Shown here: positions 6,723 to 47,833 of the stretch, piece by piece
Layout: each line of letters begins with the position of its first letter
Numbering within the stretch: position 1 is the stretch's first letter
Assembly: GCF_014696345.1 (NCBI RefSeq)
Contig: NZ_JACJPY010000032.1
Coordinates: 1 to 47,833, forward strand
Source: Pseudanabaena cinerea FACHB-1277
Lineage (GTDB): Bacteria > Cyanobacteriota > Cyanobacteriia > Pseudanabaenales > Pseudanabaenaceae
Direction of reading: 5' to 3'
DNA: 47,833 bases
The notes under the pieces: generated by a model
What the model was told of the DNA's origin: nothing
What the model saw: only the letters and a program-made list of their open reading frames with translations
Database searches by the model: none
Made by a program: the position numbers and the translations under genes

Positions 6723-7322
6723 TTATAGCTTTTCGCCACTGATAATAAACATGGGGCTAACTGCTGCAAAAACTTGATGATGTCCCCTTGTTTCTAAGCG
6801 GTTAACCGAGGACTGAACCACTTCCACATTTCGTGCTTGCAACTTCGCAAAACTGGCCGAAATCGCATATAGCCCCTCAAGGCTATTAGTAGTAGCGATC
6901 GCCCGTCCACCAGTGCTTAATCGCCCCCAACCATAATCAAGAATATCCGCAACCGATCGCCCACCCTCAATACAGATGCGATCGGGAGTCTTTGTGAAAT
7001 TAGCTAAACATTCAGGCGCATTGCCGACAATGATTTCCACATTATCAACTCCAAATTTTTGGCAATTGAGCGCCATTAATCCTGCCACATCTTCATCCCG
7101 CTCGATCGCCACAATCTGCCCCTGAGGACATAGCAACCCCGCCTCAATGGGAATTGTGCCTGTACCCGCGCCAATATCCCACAGAATAGAGTCATTACGT
7201 AGGCGCAACTGTCCAAGAATAAGTAAGCGCGTCTCACATTTGCTCATCGGAATCCCTGGCAAGCGATCGAATAGCTCATCAGGGATGCCAGGCGTAACAT
7301 AAGGCCAGATCGATGCAGTCAT
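6723..7322 (-). CDS. cbiT: Precorrin-6B/8X C15-methyltransferase, decarboxylating subunit (CbiT)
   Basis: This 199-residue enzyme transfers methyl from S-adenosylmethionine to C15 of the corrin precursor and decarboxylates the C12 acetate side chain, a step in cobalamin biosynthesis. The N-terminus PGIPDELFDRLPGIPMSK is typical of CbiT. Motif I, WDIGAGTGTIPIEAG, binds the cofactor, and VAIERD is the acidic strand-2 motif. In many bacteria CbiT is fused to CbiE as CobL; here it stands alone. No other cobalamin gene is near, so the pathway genes must be scattered. It starts at the ATG at 7322 and is followed by about 200 bases holding a palindromic repeat. Confidence 0.93.
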   Translation of the reverse strand: MTASIWPYVTPGIPDELFDRLPGIPMSKCETRLLILGQLRLRNDSILWDIGAGTGTIPIEAGLLCPQGQIVAIERDEDVAGLMALNCQKFGVDNVEIIVGNAPECLANFTKTPDRICIEGGRSVADILDYGWGRLSTGGRAIATTNSLEGLYAISASFAKLQARNVEVVQSSVNRLETRGHHQVFAAVSPMFIISGEKL

Positions 7323-7464: not shown

Positions 7465-9330
7465 CTAAACGCTAGTGGTAGTACGTCTGCGGCGACCAGC
7501 ACTAGAAGTAACTGCACCAGTTGTTTCCGCCACCTTAGTATTGACAACAGGCTTGTCAACAGCACCACTAGCACTCACCTTCGAGGGTTTTAGCGTCACA
7601 CCGAGGGCATTGGGCTTAGGGGTCTCTGACTGAGTTACATTGCCAGGGGTTTGCAATAGGAAGACGATCATCGGCTTGCTCTGCATTTGCTGACGCAATA
7701 CACGGGTGAGATCCTTTTCCAATTGACCGCGCAAGCCAACCCAATCTACCTCTAGGGAGCCAATATTTCTGGCGAAATTACCCCAGCAACTTGCAAGAGA
7801 ATTTTCGATCGCCTTGGAAATAGCGGCGATAATCAGCGATCGCTCCATCGGCAAGACCACACCACTTAGCTGAATATCAGGCATAGCCGATAGTTTGCCA
7901 TCCAATCCAATGGACACAGCGATCGTAAAGATGCCATCCCCCGCAATTTGTTGGCGATCGCGCAAGACATCACCCTTAACCATGCCATCCCGCGAAGAAT
8001 CCACCAACTCCACACCCGAAGGCACTTTATCAACAATGCGAATCGCCGATTGGGAAACTTCCACCACATCGCCATTTTCAGCAATGACAATATTTTCCTT
8101 AGGAATACCCATATCCGCCGCCATCTTCGCGTGTTGCTTCAACATCCGCAACTCACCATGGGCAGGGAAGAAGAACTTAGGACGCACCAAAGCCAACATC
8201 ATCTTATGTTCTTCCTGAGCGCCGTGACCCGATACATGGATACCCTTATCCTTACCATAGATCACATTAGCACCGAGAGCCATCAGCTTATCGATCGTGC
8301 GAACCACGGGAATCGTATTACCAGGAATCGGATTGGCAGAGAAAATCACCGTATCCCCATCACGCACCTCAAGTTGCTTATGACTACGGTTTGCCATGCG
8401 GGTTAGCGCCGACATCGGTTCACCCTGAGAGCCAGTCGTCAAGATCAAAATTTGATCATCGCGGTAATGACGCAAATTTTGCAAAGGTTGGAATAGATCA
8501 TCACGACACTTGATATAACCAAGGTTCCGCGCATGGGCAATCACATTCAACATCGATCGCCCAACCACACCAACCACGCGCCCCTGCTTGTCGGCGATAT
8601 CCAAGATCATACTGACCCGATGCACAGAAGAGGCAAAGGTGGTAATGATTACCCGTCCAGTGGCAGCCCGAATATAGCGCTCAAGGTTAGGATATACGGC
8701 TCTTTCTGAAGGCGTAATTCCTGGTACTTCCGCATTAGTAGAATCACTAATCAGCGCCAGTACACCCTTTTCACCATGCTCCGCCAGACGTGCCAAATCA
8801 AAGAATTCACCATCAACAGGCGTATGGTCGATCTTGAAATCGCCTGAATGGATCACCAAGCCCGCAGGGGTATTAATGGCAATGGAAAAGCTATCACAAA
8901 TGGAATGCGTATTCCGAATAAACTCCACAAAGAAGCTTGAACCCACCCGCACCACATCACGGGGCATCACACGGCGGAGTTCGGTGCGATTGAGTACACC
9001 TGCTTCCTTAAGTTTGTCTTCGAGCAGAGCCATGGCTAAGCGAGGCCCATAAATTATGGGAATTTCAAACTGCTTCAAGTGGAAGGAAATTGCACCAATA
9101 TGATCTTCATGACCATGCGTAACAATCATCCCTTTAATCTTGTGTTTGTTATCGCGCAGATAGGTCATATCTGGCAATACCACATTCACCCCCGGCATCA
9201 TGTTGTCAGGGAAAGATAGCCCCCCATCAAGCAACATAATTTCATTGTTGTATTCAAATACCCATGTATTTTTGCCAATTTCATGCAAGCCGCCAAGAGC
9301 AATTATTTTGAGTGCTGGTGTGTTAGTCAT
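7465..9330 (-). CDS. rnj: Ribonuclease J
   Basis: RNase J is a metallo-beta-lactamase-fold 5'-exonuclease and endonuclease acting in mRNA turnover and rRNA maturation. The 621-residue protein has the zinc motif THGHEDHIG (His72, His74, Asp76, His77). It also has the beta-CASP signatures SDSTNAEVPG, TTFASSVHR and SANPIPGN, and the late histidine motif VSGHGAQEE. A C-terminal domain follows, with an arginine-rich tail (AGRRRRTT) that may touch RNA. It is the last gene of an asd-dapA-rnj run on the minus strand, an order seen in other cyanobacteria. The 83 bases before it are mostly tandem heptamers. The start is ATG 9330 with AAAGAGA upstream. Confidence 0.97.
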   Translation of the reverse strand: MTNTPALKIIALGGLHEIGKNTWVFEYNNEIMLLDGGLSFPDNMMPGVNVVLPDMTYLRDNKHKIKGMIVTHGHEDHIGAISFHLKQFEIPIIYGPRLAMALLEDKLKEAGVLNRTELRRVMPRDVVRVGSSFFVEFIRNTHSICDSFSIAINTPAGLVIHSGDFKIDHTPVDGEFFDLARLAEHGEKGVLALISDSTNAEVPGITPSERAVYPNLERYIRAATGRVIITTFASSVHRVSMILDIADKQGRVVGVVGRSMLNVIAHARNLGYIKCRDDLFQPLQNLRHYRDDQILILTTGSQGEPMSALTRMANRSHKQLEVRDGDTVIFSANPIPGNTIPVVRTIDKLMALGANVIYGKDKGIHVSGHGAQEEHKMMLALVRPKFFFPAHGELRMLKQHAKMAADMGIPKENIVIAENGDVVEVSQSAIRIVDKVPSGVELVDSSRDGMVKGDVLRDRQQIAGDGIFTIAVSIGLDGKLSAMPDIQLSGVVLPMERSLIIAAISKAIENSLASCWGNFARNIGSLEVDWVGLRGQLEKDLTRVLRQQMQSKPMIVFLLQTPGNVTQSETPKPNALGVTLKPSKVSASGAVDKPVVNTKVAETTGAVTSSAGRRRRTTTSV

Positions 9331-9350
9331 AGGTTATCTCTTTGGGAAAG

Positions 9351-9385
9351 TAAAAAGTAAAAAGTAAAAAGTAAAAAGTAAAAAG
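9351..9385. repeat. Heptanucleotide tandem repeat (TAAAAAG x5)
   Basis: Five consecutive copies of TAAAAAG lie between dapA and rnj. Heptamer tandem arrays are a known class in cyanobacteria (STRR sequences). The array sits just upstream of the rnj ribosome-binding region on the minus strand, so length changes could alter the rnj leader. Confidence 0.9.
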
Positions 9386-9400
9386 TTGATTCAAGTAAGC

Positions 9401-9421
9401 TAAAAGCTAAAAGCTAAAAGC
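9401..9421. repeat. Heptanucleotide tandem repeat (TAAAAGC x3) overlapping the dapA stop
   Basis: Three copies of TAAAAGC follow a short spacer after the TAAAAAG array. Read on the minus strand, they supply the last codons and the TAG stop of dapA. Confidence 0.85.
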
Positions 9422-10307
9422 TCAGCAATCCCACATCTTGCAAAACTTGCTTGATTTTTGCCTCAAGATCTGCATTACCTGCAACCATTGGCGATCGCAA
9501 GATGCCTGTATCGCTTCCCATCAGTCGTAAAGCCATTTTTAAAGGAATTGGATTACTGGTGAGAAACAAAGCTTTGAATAGGGGGAATAGTTGCAGATGA
9601 ATCTCAGTCGCCTCTGTTATTTTGCCTGCGGCGAAGGATTGCATCATGGTTTGCAACTGTCTACCCACTAAGTGCGAAGCAACGCTAATTACGCCCTTTG
9701 CACCCACTGCCATTAAGGGCAAGGTTAAGGAGTCATCCCCTGAATAAAGTGTAAATTCTGGGGGGGTGATACTGCGAATGTGACTTGCTTGATCTAAATC
9801 TCCAGTTGCTTCTTTTATGGCGACAATGTTGGGGATTTCTGCTAGTTTCGCCACAGTATCTGGCTCTAACTTGCAGCCCGTCCTTCCTGGCACATTGTAA
9901 AGAATGATCGGCAGTTCGGGAGAGGCGGCGGCGATCGCCTGAAAATGGGCGTATAGTCCATCTTGGGGTGGCTTGTTGTAGTAAGGGGTCACTTGCAAAG
10001 AGCCATCTAAGCCGAGGTGTGCAGCTTTTTGGGTGGCAGCGATCGCCTCAGATGTACAGTTAGAACCTGTGCCAGCGATGATTTTAGCTTTGCCTGCGAT
10101 CGCCTGTTTCAGTACTGAAAATAGCTGATATTCCTCATCCCAAGTTAAGGTTGGTGACTCGCCTGTTGTACCACACACAACTAAGGTATCTGTCCCTGTC
10201 GCAATCAGATCATGTGCCAATTTCTCGGCTCGAGCATAATCGACCCTGCCTTCCATATCAAAGGGGGTAATCATTGCCGTTAGTAATCGTCCAAAGTCAG
10301 CACTCAT
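9414..10307 (-). CDS. dapA: 4-hydroxy-tetrahydrodipicolinate synthase (DapA)
   Basis: DapA condenses pyruvate with aspartate semialdehyde in the first committed step to diaminopimelate and lysine. The 297-residue protein has LLTAMITPF at the N-terminus, the GTTGES loop (Thr47-Thr48-Gly49-Glu50), Tyr137 in LYNVPGRTG and the Schiff-base lysine 165 in AIKEATGD. This is the complete catalytic set for the family. It lies downstream of asd, which makes its substrate, and upstream of rnj, all on the minus strand. Its final codons and stop lie inside a TAAAAGC heptamer array, so the extreme C-terminus (LLSF) may be recent. No strong Shine-Dalgarno is seen before ATG 10307. Confidence 0.97.
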
Positions 10308-39330: not shown

Positions 39331-39449
39331 TGGTACGCAAACCTCAATCGCCAGTTTTGAGGTCGCCACGGTTTTAGTCATCAAAGCCTCTCTGGGCGAT
39401 ACAAGTACTGAAGTTGACTATCTTGAGCATGACCAACCTGATTGACTGA

Positions 39450-39617
39450 CAGAAGTATTTACAAGCCCTGTCAGACAAGATGTCTGACCCACAGAAGTAT
39501 TTACAAGCCCTGTCAGACAAGATGTTTGATCCACAGAAGTATTTACAAGCCCTGTCAGACAAGATGTCTGACCCACAAAAGTATTTACAAGCCTTGTCAG
39601 ACAAGATGTCTGACCCA
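39450..39617. repeat. 42-bp tandem repeat, four full copies, each with a hairpin
   Basis: Unit starts are 39450, 39492, 39534 and 39576, with partial copies on both sides. Each unit contains GTCAGACA-AGA-TGTCTGAC, a perfect 8-base-pair hairpin (39470-39488, 39512-39530, 39554-39572, 39596-39614). In the second copy the right arm is TGTTTGAT, which keeps pairing through G-U on the plus strand. There are no unique spacers. Confidence 0.92.
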
Positions 39618-39768
39618 CAAAAGCAGAATCCTTGTGAAACGAGTATCTTGCTCGTTTATGGTTAAGAATTTGTCAGTCAATTAGCTTCTGCCCTCAAAAA
39701 AATATAGTGAGGATGCAACAAAGTGAGAAACTAATTTATGGTGAATTGCAAATATTTGAGCTAAAAGT

Positions 39769-41556
39769 TTGAAAGACAAATTTTCAGGCAAATCTGCGGG
39801 CAAATCTGCGGGGCAGCCTTCAAAACGTTCCTCCTATTGGCAAATGCGCGATTATGTTTATCCCCAGCGCTTTCTCATTGCCAAAGCATTTTTATGTACC
39901 CTTGTTTTTATCGGCTCAATGCCACTGCTGGCAGAGTTGATGGGGCGAGTGGCTCAGGCCTTGGGCAAGGGCGATGTGAATGGGATTTTGCAGATCGCCG
40001 CTTTTACGGTGGTGATGTTTGTATTTCGGGGCTTGGCACAATATGGGCAGGACTCGATGATGGCACAGGCAGCACTAAATGCAGCGAGGGATTTGCGTGT
40101 TGATGTCTATGCCCATTTGCAAACCTTAGATTTAGATTACTTTGCCGAATCGCGGACGGGGGATCTATCCTATCGCCTCACCGAAGATATCGATCGCATT
40201 GGTGAAGTAATCGGTAAATTCTTTCATCAGTTTATTCCGTCAGTCCTGCAATTATTGTTTGTACTGGCTTATATGATTTATCTAAACTGGATATTGACGC
40301 TGACCACCCTGGCGGTGGCTCCTTTAATTGCGATTTTAATTGCTTGGTTTGGCGATCGGATGTTGAGCCTAAGCCGCCGTAGCCAGGATCAAGTTTCTAA
40401 TCTTGCCGCCTTGCTATCGGAGATTTTTAGCGGCATTCGCCTAGTCCGCGCCTTTGCCACAGAAGCCTATGAAATTGAACGCTTTCAACAGGAAGCAGAA
40501 CAAAATAGCCGCCGCAAATATGCCGCCGATCGCGTGAGAGCGATTCAATATCCTGTGGTTGGCTTTTTGGAAGCGACAGGAATTTGCTTTTTGTTTTTAT
40601 TGGGAGGTTGGCTCATTGCTAACAATTGGCTCAAGCCCGAACAGTTTGTTGCCTTTGGGGCAGGTGTGGCGCTCTTAATTGACCCGATCGCCAATACCAC
40701 CAATAGCTATAACGAAATCAAACAGGCGGAAGCATCTGTGGATCGCATCTTTGAGATTTTTGATATTCAACCCGTAGTGACCGAAAAAGCCCACGCAATT
40801 CCTCTCCCTGAAGTTACGGGCAAAGTGGAATATATTAATGTGGGCTTCCATTATCAAAGCGATCGCCCTGTACTTACGGATATCAATTTGGTGGCACAGC
40901 AAGGAGAAGCGATCGCGCTGGTGGGAGCGTCGGGTGCTGGCAAATCAACGATGATGAATTTATTGATGCGCTTCCATGATGTCAATCATGGCAAGATCCT
41001 GATCGATGGTTATGATATTCGTGATGTGCAGATCAAGAGCCTGCGCCAACAATTAGCGCTAGTGCCGCAGGAGAACATTCTCTTCTCAGGAACCGTTGCT
41101 TCTAATATTGCCTTTGGTAAAAAGGATTATGACACTCAAGCAGTGGAAGCTGCCGCTAAGATTGCCAATGCCCATGACTTCATTCGCGAACTACCCCAAG
41201 GCTATGACACATGGGTGGGAGAGCGGGGCGTAAACCTCTCTGGTGGTCAGCGTCAGCGCATTTCCATAGCCCGTGCTGTGCTGCATAATCCCAAAATCCT
41301 GATCCTTGACGAAGCCACTTCCGCCTTAGATACCGAATCGGAAAGTCTTGTCCAAGAAGCGTTACAGCGTTTAATGCAGGGACGCACCGTATTTATTATC
41401 GCGCACCGCTTAGCGACCATTAGAAACAGTGATCGTATCATTGTTTTAGAACAGGGGAAGATTGTGGAATCAGGAACCCACGATGATTTGCTCCAAAAAG
41501 GAGGACGCTATGCCCAATTACATTCGCGCCAGTTTGATCATGCGATCGCCAATTAA
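39769..41556 (+). CDS. ABC exporter (fused membrane and ATPase domains)
   Basis: The 595-residue half-transporter has six membrane spans (about 35-320) and an ATPase domain with Walker A LVGASGAGKSTMM (385-393), signature LSGGQRQRISIARA (about 490), Walker B ILILDEATSALD and the switch IIAHRLATIRNSD. It resembles MsbA/HlyB-type lipid or peptide exporters, and the substrate is unknown. The frame can begin at a TTG at 39769, which includes a duplicated AAATCTGCGGG segment, or at the ATG at 39841. The second removes 24 low-complexity residues and is a fair alternative. The stop codon lies inside a 14-base tandem array. Confidence 0.93.
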   Translation: MKDKFSGKSAGKSAGQPSKRSSYWQMRDYVYPQRFLIAKAFLCTLVFIGSMPLLAELMGRVAQALGKGDVNGILQIAAFTVVMFVFRGLAQYGQDSMMAQAALNAARDLRVDVYAHLQTLDLDYFAESRTGDLSYRLTEDIDRIGEVIGKFFHQFIPSVLQLLFVLAYMIYLNWILTLTTLAVAPLIAILIAWFGDRMLSLSRRSQDQVSNLAALLSEIFSGIRLVRAFATEAYEIERFQQEAEQNSRRKYAADRVRAIQYPVVGFLEATGICFLFLLGGWLIANNWLKPEQFVAFGAGVALLIDPIANTTNSYNEIKQAEASVDRIFEIFDIQPVVTEKAHAIPLPEVTGKVEYINVGFHYQSDRPVLTDINLVAQQGEAIALVGASGAGKSTMMNLLMRFHDVNHGKILIDGYDIRDVQIKSLRQQLALVPQENILFSGTVASNIAFGKKDYDTQAVEAAAKIANAHDFIRELPQGYDTWVGERGVNLSGGQRQRISIARAVLHNPKILILDEATSALDTESESLVQEALQRLMQGRTVFIIAHRLATIRNSDRIIVLEQGKIVESGTHDDLLQKGGRYAQLHSRQFDHAIAN

Positions 41557-41602
41557 AAATCGCCAATTAAAAATCGCCAATTAAAAATCGCCAATTAAAA
41601 AT
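41551..41602. repeat. 14-bp tandem repeat (AATTAAAAATCGCC) at the end of the ABC exporter gene
   Basis: Three full copies and one partial copy follow each other, and the first supplies the last sense codon (AAT) and the TAA stop of the ABC gene. The CGCC ends recall half of the HIP1 site GCGATCGC that precedes the array. Confidence 0.9.
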
Positions 41603-42578: not shown

Positions 42579-42695
42579 GGGGGCAGTAGATACTAATCTA
42601 GCTATGGGCTGATCGCCAGACGATCGCAAGTTGTTTTATAATGAAATAAAGCAGAAAAATTAATCCATGTTTGGGTTTGATACTGGTGGTTGGTA

Positions 42696-45233
42696 ATGAC
42701 AAATAATGAAGCTACAGTCAGAATTAAGATTAATAAGTTGCTTGAATCATCGGGTTGGCGTTTTTTTGCGGAAGGGGGACAGCCTGCGAATATCGTGCTT
42801 GAGGCGGGGACTCAGATTACATCTTGGGATTTGGATGAATTTTGGGAGGATTTTGGGAAGACGAGAAAGGGCTTTATTGATTTTTTGCTGCTGAATGAAA
42901 AGGGTTCTCCGTTTATTGTTTTGGAGGCAAAGGCGGGGAATCTTGATCCGCTCGTGGGGAAAGAACAGGCGCGAGATTATGCCAAGTCTCAAAAATGCCG
43001 TTTTGTGATTCTGTCCAATGGCAATAAGCATTATTTTTGGGGTTTGGAACAAGGGAATCCCTATGAAATTACAAGTTTTCCTACGCCTCAATCGGTGATT
43101 GGGTATCAGAAAGTGATTGCTGATCCGCAACGTCTTGTCGATGAGGTGATTGATGATGATTATGTGGTGTTGACGCAATATCCTGATTATGAGAATGATG
43201 CAGGATGGAAGAATGAACTGGAAAGAGCGAGTTTTATTGAGAAGAATAAATTACGATTTTTAAGGAGTTATCAAAAACAGGCGATCGCGGCTTTACAAGG
43301 TGCGGTGCAAGCTGGGAAAGATCGTTTTTTGTTTCAGATGGCGACTGGGACAGGGAAAACCCTGACTTCGGCGGCGGTGATCAAGTTATTTTTAAAGACG
43401 GGAAATGCACGGCGGGTTTTGTTTTTGGTCGATCGCATTGAGTTAGAGGAGCAAGCTAAGAAAGCTTTTGACCTACTGCTTAAAAATGACTATAAAACGG
43501 TAATTTATAAGGAAAATCGTAATGATTGGCGACTTGCGGATATTGTGGTGACTACGGTGCAGTCATTGCTAACGGGTAACAAATATCGCGATCGCTTTTC
43601 ACCGACGGATTTTGATTTGGTGATTTCGGATGAGGCGCATCGCTCTATTGGTGGGAATGCACGGGCGGTATTTGACTATTTTATTGGCTACAAATTAGGG
43701 CTGACGGCGACACCGAAGGATTATCTGAAGCAATTTGATCGAGCTAAGCCCACGACTAAAGATCCACGAGAATATGAACGGCGGATAATGCTGGATACCT
43801 ATCGCACTTTTGGCTGTGCGGATGGAATTCCGACTTTTAGCTATGGTTTAAATGATGGGGTTAGGGATGGCTTTTTGATTCAGCCAACTGTGGTTGATGG
43901 GCGGACTGAGGTGACGACAGAGCTTTTGTCTAAGGATGGCTTTTTGGTGGAGTTTACGGATGAAGAAGGCGAAAAGACGGAAGAGAGTTTTAAAATTCGG
44001 CAATTTGAGAAGCGCTTTTTTTCATCAGCGACCAATCAGCTTTTTTGTAAGACTTTTTTAGAGAAGGCTTTTCGCGATCCGATTAGTGGCGAGATTGGGA
44101 AGTCAATTATTTTTGCGGTGAGTCAGCCTCATGCGCTGAAGTTGACGGAAATTTTGAATGAGATGGCGGATCGTATATTTCCGAATCGGTACAATTCAGA
44201 TTTTGCAGTACAGGTGACATCACAAATAACGGACGCTCAACTATTTACGAGTAATTTTACGAATAATAATTTGCGCGGTACGGCGAATTTTTTGGAAACC
44301 TATCGCACGAGCAAGGCGCGGGTATGTGTGACGGTGGGGATGATGACGACGGGCTATGATTGTCCTGATTTGTTGAATTTGGGGTTATTTCGTCCGATCT
44401 TTTCACCGACAGATTTTATTCAAATTAAGGGACGAGGGACTCGTAGGCATAATTTTTTGACTGATTTGCATGATCAGGATCTCAAGGCAACGGTAAAGCA
44501 TCCAGAGAAGACTGCTTTTAAATTGTTTGATTTCTTCGCGAACTGTGAATACTTTGAGAAGGATTTTAAATATGATGAGGTGTTGGCTTTGCCTAAGCCG
44601 AAAGCTGAGACTGGTGGCGGTGATGGCGGTACGGGAGGTGGAACTGGCGGGATTAATAGCTATGAGCATCTTGGTGCAGATATCATTACGAGTCTCAAGG
44701 AAGAGGCGATAGCCTATGGTGGCATGAAGATCGATCGCTTATATTTTGAGCGTTTTGAGGAGGTGATTCGCAACGATCGCGAGTTGGCGGCGGCGATCGA
44801 GGTCGGGCATTGGGAAAAGGCGATCGCCTATGTGAATGAGAAATTTTTTGCTGATTCTGAACAGGCTTATACCTTGGAAAAGTTGCGTAAGGCGGCGGCG
44901 GTGGATCGGCGGTTGGAGGTGCGCGAGATTTTGGAAAAGATTTTTGGCTTAATTCCCAGATTTAAGTTGAAGGATGAGTTGTTGGAGGAAGAATTTGAGA
45001 AGTTTGTGGCAAATTATCAGCCTGATGAGTCAATTCCTGCGATTAAGAGTTACTTTAAAGCCTATGTAACTAACGACCAGATTCGGAAAATCATTGAGGC
45101 AAAAAATTATGCTGAGTTAGCGACAAATGCGTTTTTATCCCTTGATAGTTTTAAGGCTGTGCCGAAGTCATACCGTAATTTAATTCCTGAGTATGTGAGG
45201 GAGTTTGTGGTGTTGGAGAGATTCGTTAGTTGA
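42696..45233 (+). CDS. hsdR: Type I restriction enzyme R subunit (HsdR)
   Basis: HsdR is the translocase and nuclease of a type I R-M complex. The 845-residue protein has an N-terminal PD-(D/E)xK nuclease (FIDFLLLNEKGSPFIVLEAKAG) and a superfamily 2 helicase with ATGTGKT (about 215-221), SDEAHRS (about 311), LGLTATP and IQIKGRGTRR. A C-terminal domain follows, of the kind that holds EcoEI-type R subunits to the methylase. I choose the ATG at 42696 with GGTGG upstream rather than the TTG at 42690. A glycine-rich linker (GGGDGGTGGGTGG) lies near 645. HIP1 sites inside it suggest it has long been resident. Confidence 0.95.
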   Translation: MTNNEATVRIKINKLLESSGWRFFAEGGQPANIVLEAGTQITSWDLDEFWEDFGKTRKGFIDFLLLNEKGSPFIVLEAKAGNLDPLVGKEQARDYAKSQKCRFVILSNGNKHYFWGLEQGNPYEITSFPTPQSVIGYQKVIADPQRLVDEVIDDDYVVLTQYPDYENDAGWKNELERASFIEKNKLRFLRSYQKQAIAALQGAVQAGKDRFLFQMATGTGKTLTSAAVIKLFLKTGNARRVLFLVDRIELEEQAKKAFDLLLKNDYKTVIYKENRNDWRLADIVVTTVQSLLTGNKYRDRFSPTDFDLVISDEAHRSIGGNARAVFDYFIGYKLGLTATPKDYLKQFDRAKPTTKDPREYERRIMLDTYRTFGCADGIPTFSYGLNDGVRDGFLIQPTVVDGRTEVTTELLSKDGFLVEFTDEEGEKTEESFKIRQFEKRFFSSATNQLFCKTFLEKAFRDPISGEIGKSIIFAVSQPHALKLTEILNEMADRIFPNRYNSDFAVQVTSQITDAQLFTSNFTNNNLRGTANFLETYRTSKARVCVTVGMMTTGYDCPDLLNLGLFRPIFSPTDFIQIKGRGTRRHNFLTDLHDQDLKATVKHPEKTAFKLFDFFANCEYFEKDFKYDEVLALPKPKAETGGGDGGTGGGTGGINSYEHLGADIITSLKEEAIAYGGMKIDRLYFERFEEVIRNDRELAAAIEVGHWEKAIAYVNEKFFADSEQAYTLEKLRKAAAVDRRLEVREILEKIFGLIPRFKLKDELLEEEFEKFVANYQPDESIPAIKSYFKAYVTNDQIRKIIEAKNYAELATNAFLSLDSFKAVPKSYRNLIPEYVREFVVLERFVS

Positions 45234-45274
45234 ATTACGAATTGGGAATTGGGAATTACGAATTACGAATTACG
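45232..45274. repeat. GAATTAC heptamer repeats after hsdR
   Basis: The array begins within the hsdR TGA stop (45231-45233) and includes three perfect consecutive GAATTAC copies at 45254-45274, plus GAATTGG variants. Confidence 0.85.
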
Positions 45275-45318
45275 GAGCTTTTTTCTGTTTTGGGCTTAGG
45301 ATAGCTTGCTGTGCAAGT

Positions 45319-45357
45319 CAATTAATAATTCGTAATTGATCAATTCGTAATTGATTA
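45319..45357. repeat. Inverted GTAATTC-type repeats before the toxin-antitoxin promoter
   Basis: ATTCGTAATTGAT is repeated here in the opposite orientation to the copy at 45232-45274, so the two arrays together could form a long hairpin. Confidence 0.7.
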
Positions 45358-45387
45358 TTGACGTACTGGATAGCGTACGCTTATAAT
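45358..45387 (+). promoter_or_regulatory. Promoter and operator of the yefM-yoeB operon
   Basis: TTGACG at 45358-45363 and TATAAT at 45382-45387, 18 bases apart, form a good vegetative promoter. Two GTAC cores at 45363-45366 and 45375-45378, the second within the palindrome AGCGTACGCT, are 12 bases centre to centre. That is the spacing described for the TGTACA cores of the E. coli yefM-yoeB operator, and both lie between or on the promoter boxes. Confidence 0.7.
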
Positions 45388-45419
45388 AAGCTATATTTTT
45401 GAGTTAAGTAGAAAATGTA

Positions 45420-45662
45420 ATGTCAACTTTTACGGCTAGTGAGGCTAGGGCGAATTTTTATCGTCTGATTGATGAGGCTAATGAGTCCCATGAGCCGATT
45501 TTGATTACGGCTAAGCGTGGTAATGCGGTTTTGTTATCGGAGGATGATTGGAAGGGGATTCAGGAGACACTTTATTTGTTGTCAATACCAAATATGCGGG
45601 AATCGATTCAAGCTGGTTTGGCTACTGCGATCGCTGATTGTGATGAGGATTTGGACTGGTGA
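45420..45662 (+). CDS. yefM: Type II antitoxin, YefM/Phd family
   Basis: The 80-residue antitoxin has the Phd/YefM N-terminal DNA-binding fold (FTASEARANFYRLIDEANESHEPILITAKRGNAVLLSEDDW) and an acidic C-terminal tail (IADCDEDLDW) that should wrap the toxin. It is followed by the YoeB-type toxin gene with a four-base GTGA overlap, so the pair is translationally coupled. The promoter at 45358-45387 carries a likely autoregulatory operator. The pair sits between hsdR and hsdM, where loss of the locus would release the toxin. Confidence 0.93.
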   Translation: MSTFTASEARANFYRLIDEANESHEPILITAKRGNAVLLSEDDWKGIQETLYLLSIPNMRESIQAGLATAIADCDEDLDW

Positions 45663-45922
45663 GTTGGAGAATTGTATATACAAAACAATCTCAGAAGGAT
45701 GCACAGAAATTATTGTCGGCGGGGTTGAAAGCTAAGACTGATAAGTTGTTGGATATTCTCAAAGAGAACCCTTATCAAACGCCTCCAAGTTATGAGAAGT
45801 TAGTTGGAGATTTGGCGGGTGCATATTCACGCAGGATTAATATTCAGCATCGTTTGGTTTATCAAGTTTTAGATAGCGATCGCGTTGTGAAGGTGATTCG
45901 GATGTGGACGCATTATGAATAA
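45659..45922 (+). CDS. yoeB: Type II toxin, Txe/YoeB mRNA interferase
   Basis: The 87-residue toxin is a ribosome-dependent endoribonuclease of the RelE superfamily. WRIVYTKQSQKDAQKL starts the fold, and GAYSRRINIQHRLVYQV carries the conserved arginines. MWTHYE at the C-terminus has the His-Tyr pair needed for cleavage in YoeB. All key residues appear intact. It begins at a GTG that overlaps the antitoxin stop. AATTACGA repeats start at the stop codon. Confidence 0.94.
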   Translation: MSWRIVYTKQSQKDAQKLLSAGLKAKTDKLLDILKENPYQTPPSYEKLVGDLAGAYSRRINIQHRLVYQVLDSDRVVKVIRMWTHYE

Positions 45923-45963
45923 TTACGAATTGGGAATTACGAATTGGGAATTACGAATTACGA
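45920..45963. repeat. AATTACG heptamer repeats after yoeB
   Basis: Several AATTACGA copies, with AATTGGG variants, run from the yoeB stop codon onward in the same orientation as those after hsdR. Confidence 0.85.
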
Positions 45964-46012
45964 GTTATTGGGTTAGGGTTAGGGGTATCGCTTAGGAGTT
46001 ATAATATTCTAC

Positions 46013-46045
46013 CAATTCGTAATTGTTAATTCGTAATTCGTAATT
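46013..46045. repeat. ATTCGTA repeats directly before hsdM
   Basis: Inverted-orientation heptamers (AATTCGTAATTGTTAATTCG and on) run to within five bases of the hsdM start and leave no Shine-Dalgarno. Confidence 0.85.
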
Positions 46046-46049
46046 TTTA

Positions 46050-47750
46050 ATGCTTGATTCTGAAACTAAACGCCGCATCGATACTGCTCGTGATATTTTG
46101 GTGGGGAAGGTTCCCGATCCGAAGTCACAGGTGGAACAGATCACCATTGCTCTCATCTATAAGTTTATGGATGATATGGATGCGGAGGTGGAGGAGTTGG
46201 GGGGCGATCGCAGTTTTTTTGCGGGTGAGTTTGCGAAGTTTGGTTGGGGTCGGTTGATGAGTCCGAGCGTGGGTGGGCATGAGTTGCTGAGCCTTTACAG
46301 TGAGGGGATTAGCACGATGCCGCAAAATGCGGGGATTCCTGCGTTGTTTCGAGATATTTTTAAGAATGCATATCTTCCCTATCGCGATCCTGAGACGTTG
46401 AAGAGTTTCTTGAAGGTGATTGATGGTTTTACCTATGATCATTCGGAACGGTTGGGGGATGCGTTTGAGTATTTGCTGTCGGTGTTGGGTTCGCAGGGGG
46501 ATGCGGGGCAGTTCCGCACGCCGCGCCATATTATTGATTTTATGGTGGAGATTTTGCAACCTAAAAAGGGTGAGGTGATTCTCGATCCTGCTTGTGGTAC
46601 GGCGGGTTTTCTGATTTCGGCGTATAAGCATATTTTGCGGTCTAATCTGGATGCTCAGGGGAATAGTACGCTTACGCCCGATGAGAAGGGGAAGATGGCG
46701 ACGAATTTTAAGGGTTATGATATTTCGCCCGATATGGTGCGGTTGTCGTTGGTAAATCTCTATTTGCATGGGTTTAAGAGTCCACAAATTTTTGAGTACG
46801 ATACTTTGACTTCTGAGGATCGCTGGAATGAGTTTGCGGATGTGATCCTTGCGAATCCGCCGTTTATGTCGCCGAAGGGTGGGATTAAGCCCCATAAGCG
46901 GTTTTCGATTAAGGCGAAGCGGAGTGAGGTTCTATTTGTGGACTATATGGCGGAACATCTTTCGCCAAGGGGTAGGGCGGGGATTATTGTGCCTGAGGGG
47001 ATTATCTTCCAGAGTCAGACTGCTTATAAGGATTTGCGGAAGATGTTGGTTGAAAATTCGCTGGTGGCGGTGATTTCGCTTCCTGCTGGGGTTTTTAATC
47101 CTTATTCTGGGGTGAAGACTTCGATTTTGATTTTGGATAAGTCTTTGGCGAAGAAGACGGATAAGATTGCGTTTTTTAAGGTGGAGAATGATGGGTTTGG
47201 GTTGGGCGCACAAAGGCGGGCGGTTGAAGGGGATGATTTGCCGTTTGTTTTGGATCAAATTACGAATTACGAATTACGAATTACGAAGGGAGAGGAGTTA
47301 ATTACGAGTGAGGATGATCGGGTTTTGATTGTGCCGAAGTCTAAGATTGCGGCTAGTGGTGATTATAATTTGATTGGGGAAAGATATCGAGAGACAAGCT
47401 TTGTTAGTAGTCATTTTCCAATGGTTGAGCTAGGTGATGTTTCCGAAGTAACATCTAGCAAAAGAATACTTGCAGAAGAATATGTTCCATCTGGCATTCC
47501 ATTTTATCGAACTAAAGAGATAGTTGAGTTAAGCAAAGGTCACGAAATTACACTCGAACTGTTTATTTCTGAAGAAAGATTTCAGTCGATTAAATCTCGC
47601 TTTGGATCACCTGCAAAAGGTGACTTGTTGATCTCAGCAGTTGGTACAATTGGGATCTCTTGGATTGTTTCGGATGATCGGGAGTTTTATTTTAAAGATG
47701 GAAATCTTATTTGGGTAAGAAATTTAGAAAATAGACCTGTTGGGAAATAA
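46050..47750 (+). CDS. hsdM: Type I N6-adenine methylase (HsdM) with fused, truncated specificity domain
   Basis: The 566-residue protein starts with the HsdM helical N-terminus. The methylase core has the cofactor motif DPACGTAGFL (about 178-187) and the catalytic NPPF (about 268-271). Between about 403 and 412 the repeated codons ITNYELRITK derive from four AATTACG heptamers. After GDYNLIGERYRE, residues from about 456 (FPMVELGDVSEVTS to GNLIWVRNLENR) form the first part of an HsdS-type target-recognition domain. The frame ends at 47750 inside that domain. Two stops (TAA at 47748-47750 and TAA at 47754-47756) interrupt a frame that then stays open to the window edge. No Shine-Dalgarno precedes the ATG. 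The locus order hsdR, toxin-antitoxin, hsdM is unusual. Confidence 0.9.
   Translation: MLDSETKRRIDTARDILVGKVPDPKSQVEQITIALIYKFMDDMDAEVEELGGDRSFFAGEFAKFGWGRLMSPSVGGHELLSLYSEGISTMPQNAGIPALFRDIFKNAYLPYRDPETLKSFLKVIDGFTYDHSERLGDAFEYLLSVLGSQGDAGQFRTPRHIIDFMVEILQPKKGEVILDPACGTAGFLISAYKHILRSNLDAQGNSTLTPDEKGKMATNFKGYDISPDMVRLSLVNLYLHGFKSPQIFEYDTLTSEDRWNEFADVILANPPFMSPKGGIKPHKRFSIKAKRSEVLFVDYMAEHLSPRGRAGIIVPEGIIFQSQTAYKDLRKMLVENSLVAVISLPAGVFNPYSGVKTSILILDKSLAKKTDKIAFFKVENDGFGLGAQRRAVEGDDLPFVLDQITNYELRITKGEELITSEDDRVLIVPKSKIAASGDYNLIGERYRETSFVSSHFPMVELGDVSEVTSSKRILAEEYVPSGIPFYRTKEIVELSKGHEITLELFISEERFQSIKSRFGSPAKGDLLISAVGTIGISWIVSDDREFYFKDGNLIWVRNLENRPVGK
47258..47285 (+). repeat. Four AATTACG heptamers inside the hsdM coding sequence
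   Basis: Four perfect tandem heptamers are read in frame as ITNYELRIT at the linker between methylase core and specificity domain. In this orientation the repeat has no stop codon in any frame. Confidence 0.92.
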
Positions 47751-47833
47751 AAGTAAAGTACAGAAAGGGTTTTACTTTTTCCATCCATTTTTAAGCAGAA
47801 TCTAAATAGAAGTTCCATAAACCAGCAGCATTC

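Follow-up and report, generated by a model that had tools for sequence, protein, structure and literature searches.

The window analysed here is a stretch of 47,833 nucleotides from Pseudanabaena cinerea FACHB-1277, which forms part of contig C106 of a 4.77-Mb genome (G000; G-codes denote genomes and L-codes loci) and carries tandem arrays of the heptamer GAATTAC at its hsd locus. The same heptamer flanks, as inverted arms, a clade of four-helix-bundle genes called IVP1, and arrays of the same unit are also found without the gene. These observations suggest that the arrays of the window represent the arms of a small element with the IVP1 gene at its centre, a reading to which we assign a probability of roughly 0.58. 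By analogy with the REP (repetitive extragenic palindromic)-associated tyrosine transposases (RAYT) and their REPINs (REP doublets forming hairpins), with intervening sequences and with Avd, the IVP1 protein may drive the spread of these repeats.

Five arrays lie within positions 45232–47287. A preliminary description, made from the letters of this DNA, had placed them after hsdR, around the toxin-antitoxin pair, before hsdM and inside hsdM, and all five were confirmed. The dimer GAATTACGAATTAC has five matches in the window and none in 100 dinucleotide shuffles, and an 11-base core has 70 matches genome-wide versus 5 for the reversed control. The description took the array to be the same throughout, and its unit is right, but ahead of the toxin-antitoxin pair and of hsdM the array runs in the reverse direction. 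Because the arrays at 45326–45355 and 46014–46045 are reverse-complemented (GTAATTC, the closed or − direction, as opposed to GAATTAC, the open or + direction), both intergenic sites are + to − inverted pairs with a spacer of 54–55 bases and fold as hairpins, with predicted energies of −36.8 and −41.2 kcal/mol. Both this inverted-arm layout and the matching four-helix-bundle element are absent from that description.

A gene between inverted heptamer arms

The full element reads (GAATTAC)n, gene, (GTAATTC)n and spans roughly 390–520 bp between outer arm ends, with IVP1, a four-helix-bundle gene of about 120 amino acids, flanked by the inverted arms. Its product belongs to PF05635 (‘23S rRNA intervening sequence protein’; 109.7 bits against a curated cut-off of 33.8) and TIGR02436 (121 versus 24), and matches PDB entry 2rld at 7e-38. 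Genomes G000, G007, G013, G016 and G019 (twice) carry IVP1 between + and − arrays, as do, directly after hsdMS (fused hsdM-hsdS), an Oscillatoriales metagenome-assembled genome (MAG) and L126, a bacterium of unstated phylum whose IVP1 gene is 81% identical and has GAATTAC cores too. The settings fall into three groups: in or after hsdMS (G000, the Oscillatoriales MAG and L126), behind members of a single gene family, with downstream sequence that varies (G013 and both copies of G019), and at one orthologous place (G007 and G016). When four such cassettes were folded, upstream-arm bases paired with the last 150 nucleotides in every case (23 of 32, 51 of 80, 24 of 62 and 22 of 25).

One copy sits within the hsdMS gene itself. 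When reversed contig C12 is compared with the hsdMS gene of G019, the match runs from 7039 (the window's match ends at 7042) to 7220, a 464-bp IVP1 element follows, and the match restarts at 7732–7859, such that the element occupies the place of 511 bp of hsdMS relative to G019. From these matches, the broken hsdMS of the window and the 3′ part on C12 appear to be the same gene. A separate inserted sequence lies at the ends of both contigs. In the window it occupies 47733–47833, where it breaks the fused frame, and the end of C12 is a near-identical inverted terminus of about 21 bases (19 alike by eye), which resembles an insertion element.

A phylum-wide search found PF05635-type matches in 82 of 386 cyanobacterial genomes, and flanks were compared at 52 deduplicated loci. 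These are the best matches of the genus and phylum searches rather than a random sample, and loci without a match to the two query proteins fell out. GAATTAC cores are present on both sides of all seven IVP1 genes of at least 75% identity and on either side of none of the 45 other loci, whereas TAACTGA dimers flank six of the 52. Identity at a lag of seven bases reaches 0.52 upstream and 0.49 downstream within 100 bp of the gene, compared with 0.28 at 400–1100 bp (103 versus 698 windows; p about 1e-46, with loci not independent), and the signal drops off within 200 bp. At least five 7-mers are common to the upstream and the reverse-complemented downstream flank at 39 of 52 loci, versus 1 of 15 control genes. 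With duplicates kept (57 loci), at least one 7-mer is shared in inverted orientation at 49 and in direct orientation at 37, and mean shared numbers are 16.2 inverted, 9.4 direct and 2.7 for random pairing.

The heptamer is also kept within protein clades. Among 61 loci, which yield 1,753 pairs with non-orthologous surroundings, the identical heptamer is found in all 20 pairs of at least 80% protein identity. These pairs come from three clades (16 IVP1, 3 of the TAACTGA clade and 1 of another), and the corresponding share is 0.4–2.4% of pairs per identity band from 30 to 60%. Mean heptamer cosine is 0.73 at 80% identity or more, 0.22–0.31 at 60–80% and at most 0.10 below, and none of 500 permutations gave a link as strong. 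Within the genus, 18-mer copies number 22–61 in the five genomes with IVP1 and 0–34 (median 2) in the 21 without it (p 5e-4, for genomes that are related).

The forms in the window are gene-less: two hairpins (separating hsdR, the toxin-antitoxin pair and hsdMS) and a single open arm in hsdM. Across the genus, + to − pairs within 150 bp outnumber − to + pairs by 59 to 5, counts that are not independent, with 102 arrays unpaired; counted as clusters, the numbers are 21 and 2. Inverted pairing is weaker elsewhere, at 15 versus 8 in viral contigs and 2 versus 0 in Oscillatoriales regions. A repeat restricted to the genus, as presence in 22 of 58 genomes and in 0 of 32 outside the genus had suggested, is ruled out by 4 of 44 genomes reached via hsdM loci (one with 489 copies) and by 82 viral-contig stretches.

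Related genes are also carried by plasmids, for which 11 of the 27 records with a match were fetched. Periodicity is clear beside the copies of Bernardetia (Bacteroidota) and of Treponema (Spirochaetota), the latter with flanks that resemble each other mainly in direct orientation, and weaker in Monoglobus (Bacillota), Chlorohelix (Chloroflexota) and Azospirillum (Pseudomonadota), which have 10, 5 and 21 shared inverted 7-mers. As a raw count, 6 of the 11 genes adjoin a defence gene (L574, L575, L577, L579, L580 and L581); at L572 an N-6 methylase lies about 1 kb away, and the other four lack a defence neighbour or are unannotated. The neighbours observed are hsdS/hsdR, cas2/cas1 (twice), a place before cas1, drmD/pglX and helicase/N-6 methylase.

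Reading direction of arrays within genes

Every frame of (GAATTAC)n encodes the same seven-codon cycle, ELRITNY, and the open strand is free of stops. (GTAATTC)n, by contrast, meets TAA once per seven codons, and a perfect closed array of at least 23 bp is open in no frame. The preliminary description argued this correctly; the same argument is already in print for TAACTGA heptamers, in the available text of PMC4679880.

The survey of arrays in the genus covered 144 regions (the last 5.8 kb of the window, 18 stretches of its own genome and 125 of relatives; 84% coding). Arrays shorter than 18 bp were dropped here, as in the cluster counts, the Oscillatoriales regions and the viral contigs. Among 204 distinct arrays, 35 are read in frame in the open and 5 in the closed direction, 41 lie at gene edges and 123 are intergenic. 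In-gene clusters were counted in frames of at least 250 amino acids, which left out L276 and L283, and the 19 clusters correspond to 11 independent sites once eight at an ABC-transporter site are merged and L277, with its array 11 residues from the frame start, is set aside. Every one of the 11 has an open-direction arm. Named from their Pfam matches, the sites are hsdM, a CocE-like hydrolase, NadB, two type IIG-like enzymes, PabB, a photolyase, MnmE, a fused ABC transporter (8 genomes), GcvP and an Orn/Lys/Arg decarboxylase; the names NadB, PabB, MnmE and CocE are partly our assumption. Six sites fall between two Pfam matches (NadB, PabB, photolyase, ABC transporter, GcvP and, with a 2-residue overlap, the decarboxylase).

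The expectation that genes are entered in one orientation is largely borne out by these further copies, most of which read open. The outcome that the description named as refuting it, in-gene copies in both orientations, does occur at two sites, one type IIG-like gene and gcvP, but in each the closed arm trails an open arm and contains no in-frame stop. In the type IIG-like gene this is because the codon CAA stands where the canonical unit has TAA. NYEL is found in 11 of 26 aligned GcvP orthologues, the linkers of these 11 differing by 0, 7 or 14 residues, and the CocE-like array measures 67 or 25 bp. Entry into coding linkers, also proposed earlier, fits the six sites between Pfam matches. 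In hsdM, the array-coded linker and that of an array-free orthologue are both 60 residues long in the aligned stretch. Since the orthologue's unrelated linker is equally long, plain insertion of the array into hsdM is ruled out. An array occupies this linker in G000, G007 and a related MAG (L112), an inverted pair occupies it in L126 and in a Planctomycetota MAG (L120), whereas in most of the 84 aligned sequences the linker is unrelated but similar in length. In MnmE, the loop after the NKxD motif (orthologues L313–L334) holds LTPSPSPxGRGEQ/LTPPLLRERGLGGEG-like strings in several species and NYELRIT in G000; another repeat family occupies the same loop.

The effect of stop codons by itself would produce the open-direction bias in genes, and where a gene is defined as an open frame, the claim of exclusively open entry is to some extent circular. 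A homology-based check, with a database confined to the genes of the fetched regions, gave 30 open arrays, 5 closed arrays and no split genes. Four of the closed arrays are in gcvP, and the fifth is in a decayed IVP1 gene copy on contig C94 of G019, with 3 to 5 TAA within its matches. At L299 on the same contig, decayed second and third four-helix-bundle gene copies (1949–2483) contain several in-frame TAA among closed arrays. Outside the genus, viral contigs (82 loci analysed, 80 listed) have 119 arrays, 12 of them open in genes (two being one gene) and 2 closed, and 20 Oscillatoriales regions have one of 27 arrays in a gene, in the open reading.

The hsd locus and other repeats of the window

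Content between hsdR and hsdMS varies among orthologous hsd loci of three species and is bounded by array pairs. A YefM/YoeB pair is common to G000 and G007, and G007 (L107) additionally encodes a TacA-like antitoxin with a protein of sub-threshold GNAT similarity. G004 (L108) instead has two reversed small genes, whose Phd- and PIN-like matches are sub-threshold only. G019 (L106) retains a fragment resembling the TacA-like antitoxin, with no hsdR match within the 5.2 kb before it. Homology ends or restarts at or beside arrays in all three comparisons, and repeated arms may, to judge from these sequences, have enabled exchange of toxin-antitoxin cassettes by recombination. The placement of arrays at module junctions, as first described, holds at the hsd locus, where the cassette differs between species, but not in general: neighbours were lost in 69 of 449 cases across arrays versus 324 of 1,556 elsewhere (all from array-chosen regions), such that arrays as general synteny or recombination breakpoints are rejected. 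Taken as a whole, the earlier interpretation is partly supported.

Table 1. Heptamer arrays and hsd-locus genes of the window
Feature	Position	Strand	Remark
(AAAGTAA)5.7 array	9347..9386	+	unit rotated from the heptamer that adjoins another four-helix-bundle subfamily of the genus
(AAGCTAA)3.7 array	9397..9422	+	rotation of the heptamer beside a four-helix-bundle gene on contig C79 of this genome
hsdR-like gene (ResIII, HSDR_N_2)	42690..45233	+	
GAATTAC array, open arm of intergenic hairpin 1	45232..45274	+	starts inside hsdR stop codon TGA 45231-45233
GTAATTC array, closed arm of hairpin 1	45326..45355	-	5′ of toxin-antitoxin pair
YefM/Phd-type antitoxin	45420..45662	+	cassette gene between the two hairpins
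Txe/YoeB-type toxin	45659..45922	+	cassette gene between the two hairpins
GAATTAC/GAATTGG array, open arm of hairpin 2	45921..45967	+	overlaps yoeB-like stop TAA 45920-45922
GTAATTC array, closed arm of hairpin 2	46014..46045	-	ends 4 bases 5′ of hsdM ATG at 46050
Fused hsdM-hsdS gene, 5′ part	46050..47750	+	homology to ~835-amino-acid orthologue ends at 47733, inserted sequence from there
GAATTAC array inside hsdM	47258..47287	+	in-frame reading QITNYELRITK

Other repeats were observed in the window. The AAAGTAA and AAGCTAA arrays, whose units are rotated forms of heptamers found next to two further four-helix-bundle subfamilies of the genus, adjoin, in that order, in one intergenic gap (9347–9422). 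A 42-bp unit is repeated 4.2 times at 39449–39623 with a 95% match, and a 14-bp unit, ATCGCCAATTAAAA, equal to twice seven, is repeated 4.1 times at 41545–41602, where it spans the stop of a 595-amino-acid frame (39769–41556).

Origin of the arrays and comparison with known systems

If the arrays are arm repeats of an element built around IVP1, the arms would pair as RNA or as single-stranded DNA. The protein that it encodes, a distant match to Avd, would help copies to spread and leave gene-less arms behind. Replication slippage would then alter arm length, and within genes mainly arms in the stop-free direction would survive, often in linkers. Several points weigh against this explanation. 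Neither movement nor excision was observed, nor a target duplication. G018, G001 and G004 carry 34, 19 and 18 copies without an IVP1 gene, and G001 is a single contig. The protein–heptamer pairing is not one to one, because GAATTAC arms, though in reversed order, also flank a Nostoc plasmid gene (C052) of just 43% similarity; with this exception, the rule of one protein subfamily per heptamer is not strict. Mean lag-7 identity is below 0.36 at 7 of 52 loci, including this genome's own IVP1 copy, and the control comprises just 15 nearby genes, whose own lag-7 identity is raised (0.37). Synteny is not generally broken at arrays, and the upstream context of IVP1 is partly shared (three copies within or behind hsdMS, three behind a single gene family and two at one orthologous place). 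Our confidence is tempered by the small number of independent settings and by the closest pairs, 16 of 20 of which are IVP1, being dominated by one clade.

Heptanucleotide tandem repeats known as STRR (short tandemly repeated repetitive) sequences occur in Cyanobacteria, and the arrays could be plain slippage satellites of this kind, with the four-helix-bundle gene merely tending to such intergenic places. Whole-unit length changes (the 7- or 14-residue differences in gcvP and the two CocE-like array lengths) and gene-less arrays in several genomes agree with slippage. It does not predict arms that face each other across one gene family, a signal that fades within 200 bp of the gene or a heptamer kept by clade at non-orthologous sites, and we regard it as an improbable full account. 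About equally doubtful is a role for some other enzyme in spreading the hairpins, for instance a REP-associated tyrosine transposase, with the gene as a passenger that inserts into or lives in them. The inverted, mostly extragenic doublets do resemble REPINs as presented in the available text of PMC3116915, and the full elements were found via the PF05635 gene or as arms around it, a sample that does not speak against elements carrying another gene. A passenger, however, would need no clade-specific heptamer.

The least probable of these alternatives holds that the arrays are selected regulatory signals, either hairpins after stop codons that stabilize, process or terminate mRNA, or sites for a translational regulator. 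Such a role accords with the 41 gene-edge arrays, 31 of which are at the 3′ end in the open direction and 4 at the 3′ end in the closed direction, with the −37 and −41 kcal/mol hairpins of the window, and with the translational role proposed for TAACTGA in the available text of MacGregor 2015 (PMC4679880). It sits poorly with the variation of presence and arm length between orthologous places and with the 42 of 65 clusters (one in-gene site being split over 8) that have no inverted partner within 150 bp.

The origin of heptamer repeats in Cyanobacteria and other bacteria is so far unexplained, as is the function of IVP proteins, and one heptamer per protein clade offers a testable explanation for both. 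The element built around IVP1 would illustrate how arms reach gene junctions and, in the stop-free direction, enter enzymes as protein linkers. The 7-letter repeats of related genes may likewise account for scattered unexplained repeats in other bacteria. More speculatively, and on balance we would not expect it to hold in full, IVP genes across many phyla could form one large class of minimal mobile elements with clade-cognate heptamer arms. Scattered heptamers, TAACTGA included, would then be their gene-less offspring. Copying would pass through a hairpin, made of RNA or of single-stranded DNA, guided by the Avd-like protein and relying on a borrowed reverse transcriptase or replication fork, and the copies would often settle at defence-operon junctions.

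A search of part of the literature for the encoded peptides (rotations of NYELRIT and the closed-strand VIRNSQF) and for GAATTACGAATTAC found none, and among the papers listed by further searches of it, no title or abstract opening joined four-helix-bundle or IVP genes to heptamer repeats. Palindromic elements of Rickettsia are also repeats read through in frame within genes, and differ in sequence and size. We know of no link of these elements, or of STRR heptamers, to a four-helix-bundle gene.

A close counterpart is the TAACTGA system of Beggiatoaceae, Cyanobacteria and Bacteroidetes, described in the available text of MacGregor 2015 (PMC4679880). Its heptamers, like those here, are mostly intergenic, with one orientation limited by stops in genes and the other read through, mostly at protein edges. 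The unit here, by contrast, is GAATTAC, and of the sets in the TAACTGA genome 169 are direct and a single one indirect. In its main text, that paper speculates on a repeat-binding protein as a possible mobile element, and does not mention the four-helix, S23 or 23S intervening gene family. The resemblance of PF05635 to Avd is remarked on in the available text of PMC10053308. For IVP1 the similarity is weak (Pfam bAvd 4e-6, NCBIfam Avd 2e-4) and below both curated cut-offs (21.4 bits versus 80 for Avd), so that IVP1 does not qualify as the Avd of diversity-generating retroelements.

REPINs are, in the available text of Bertels and Rainey 2011 (PMC3116915), inverted repeat doublets that fold as hairpins and are thought to derive from the flanks of an autonomous element. 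The elements here likewise include inverted doublets able to form hairpins, but their arms are tandem heptamers and the flanked gene encodes a four-helix bundle rather than a Y1 transposase, the elements having been sought via the PF05635 gene. With the 23S rRNA intervening sequences that contain an S23p gene, for example in Coxiella (PMC4990558), the IVP1 element shares complementary ends capable of forming a stem. Unlike those sequences, IVP1 elements lie outside rRNA genes (in hsdMS, after hsdMS and beside other protein genes), measure about 390–520 bp, and have heptamer arms and gene-less copies at many places.
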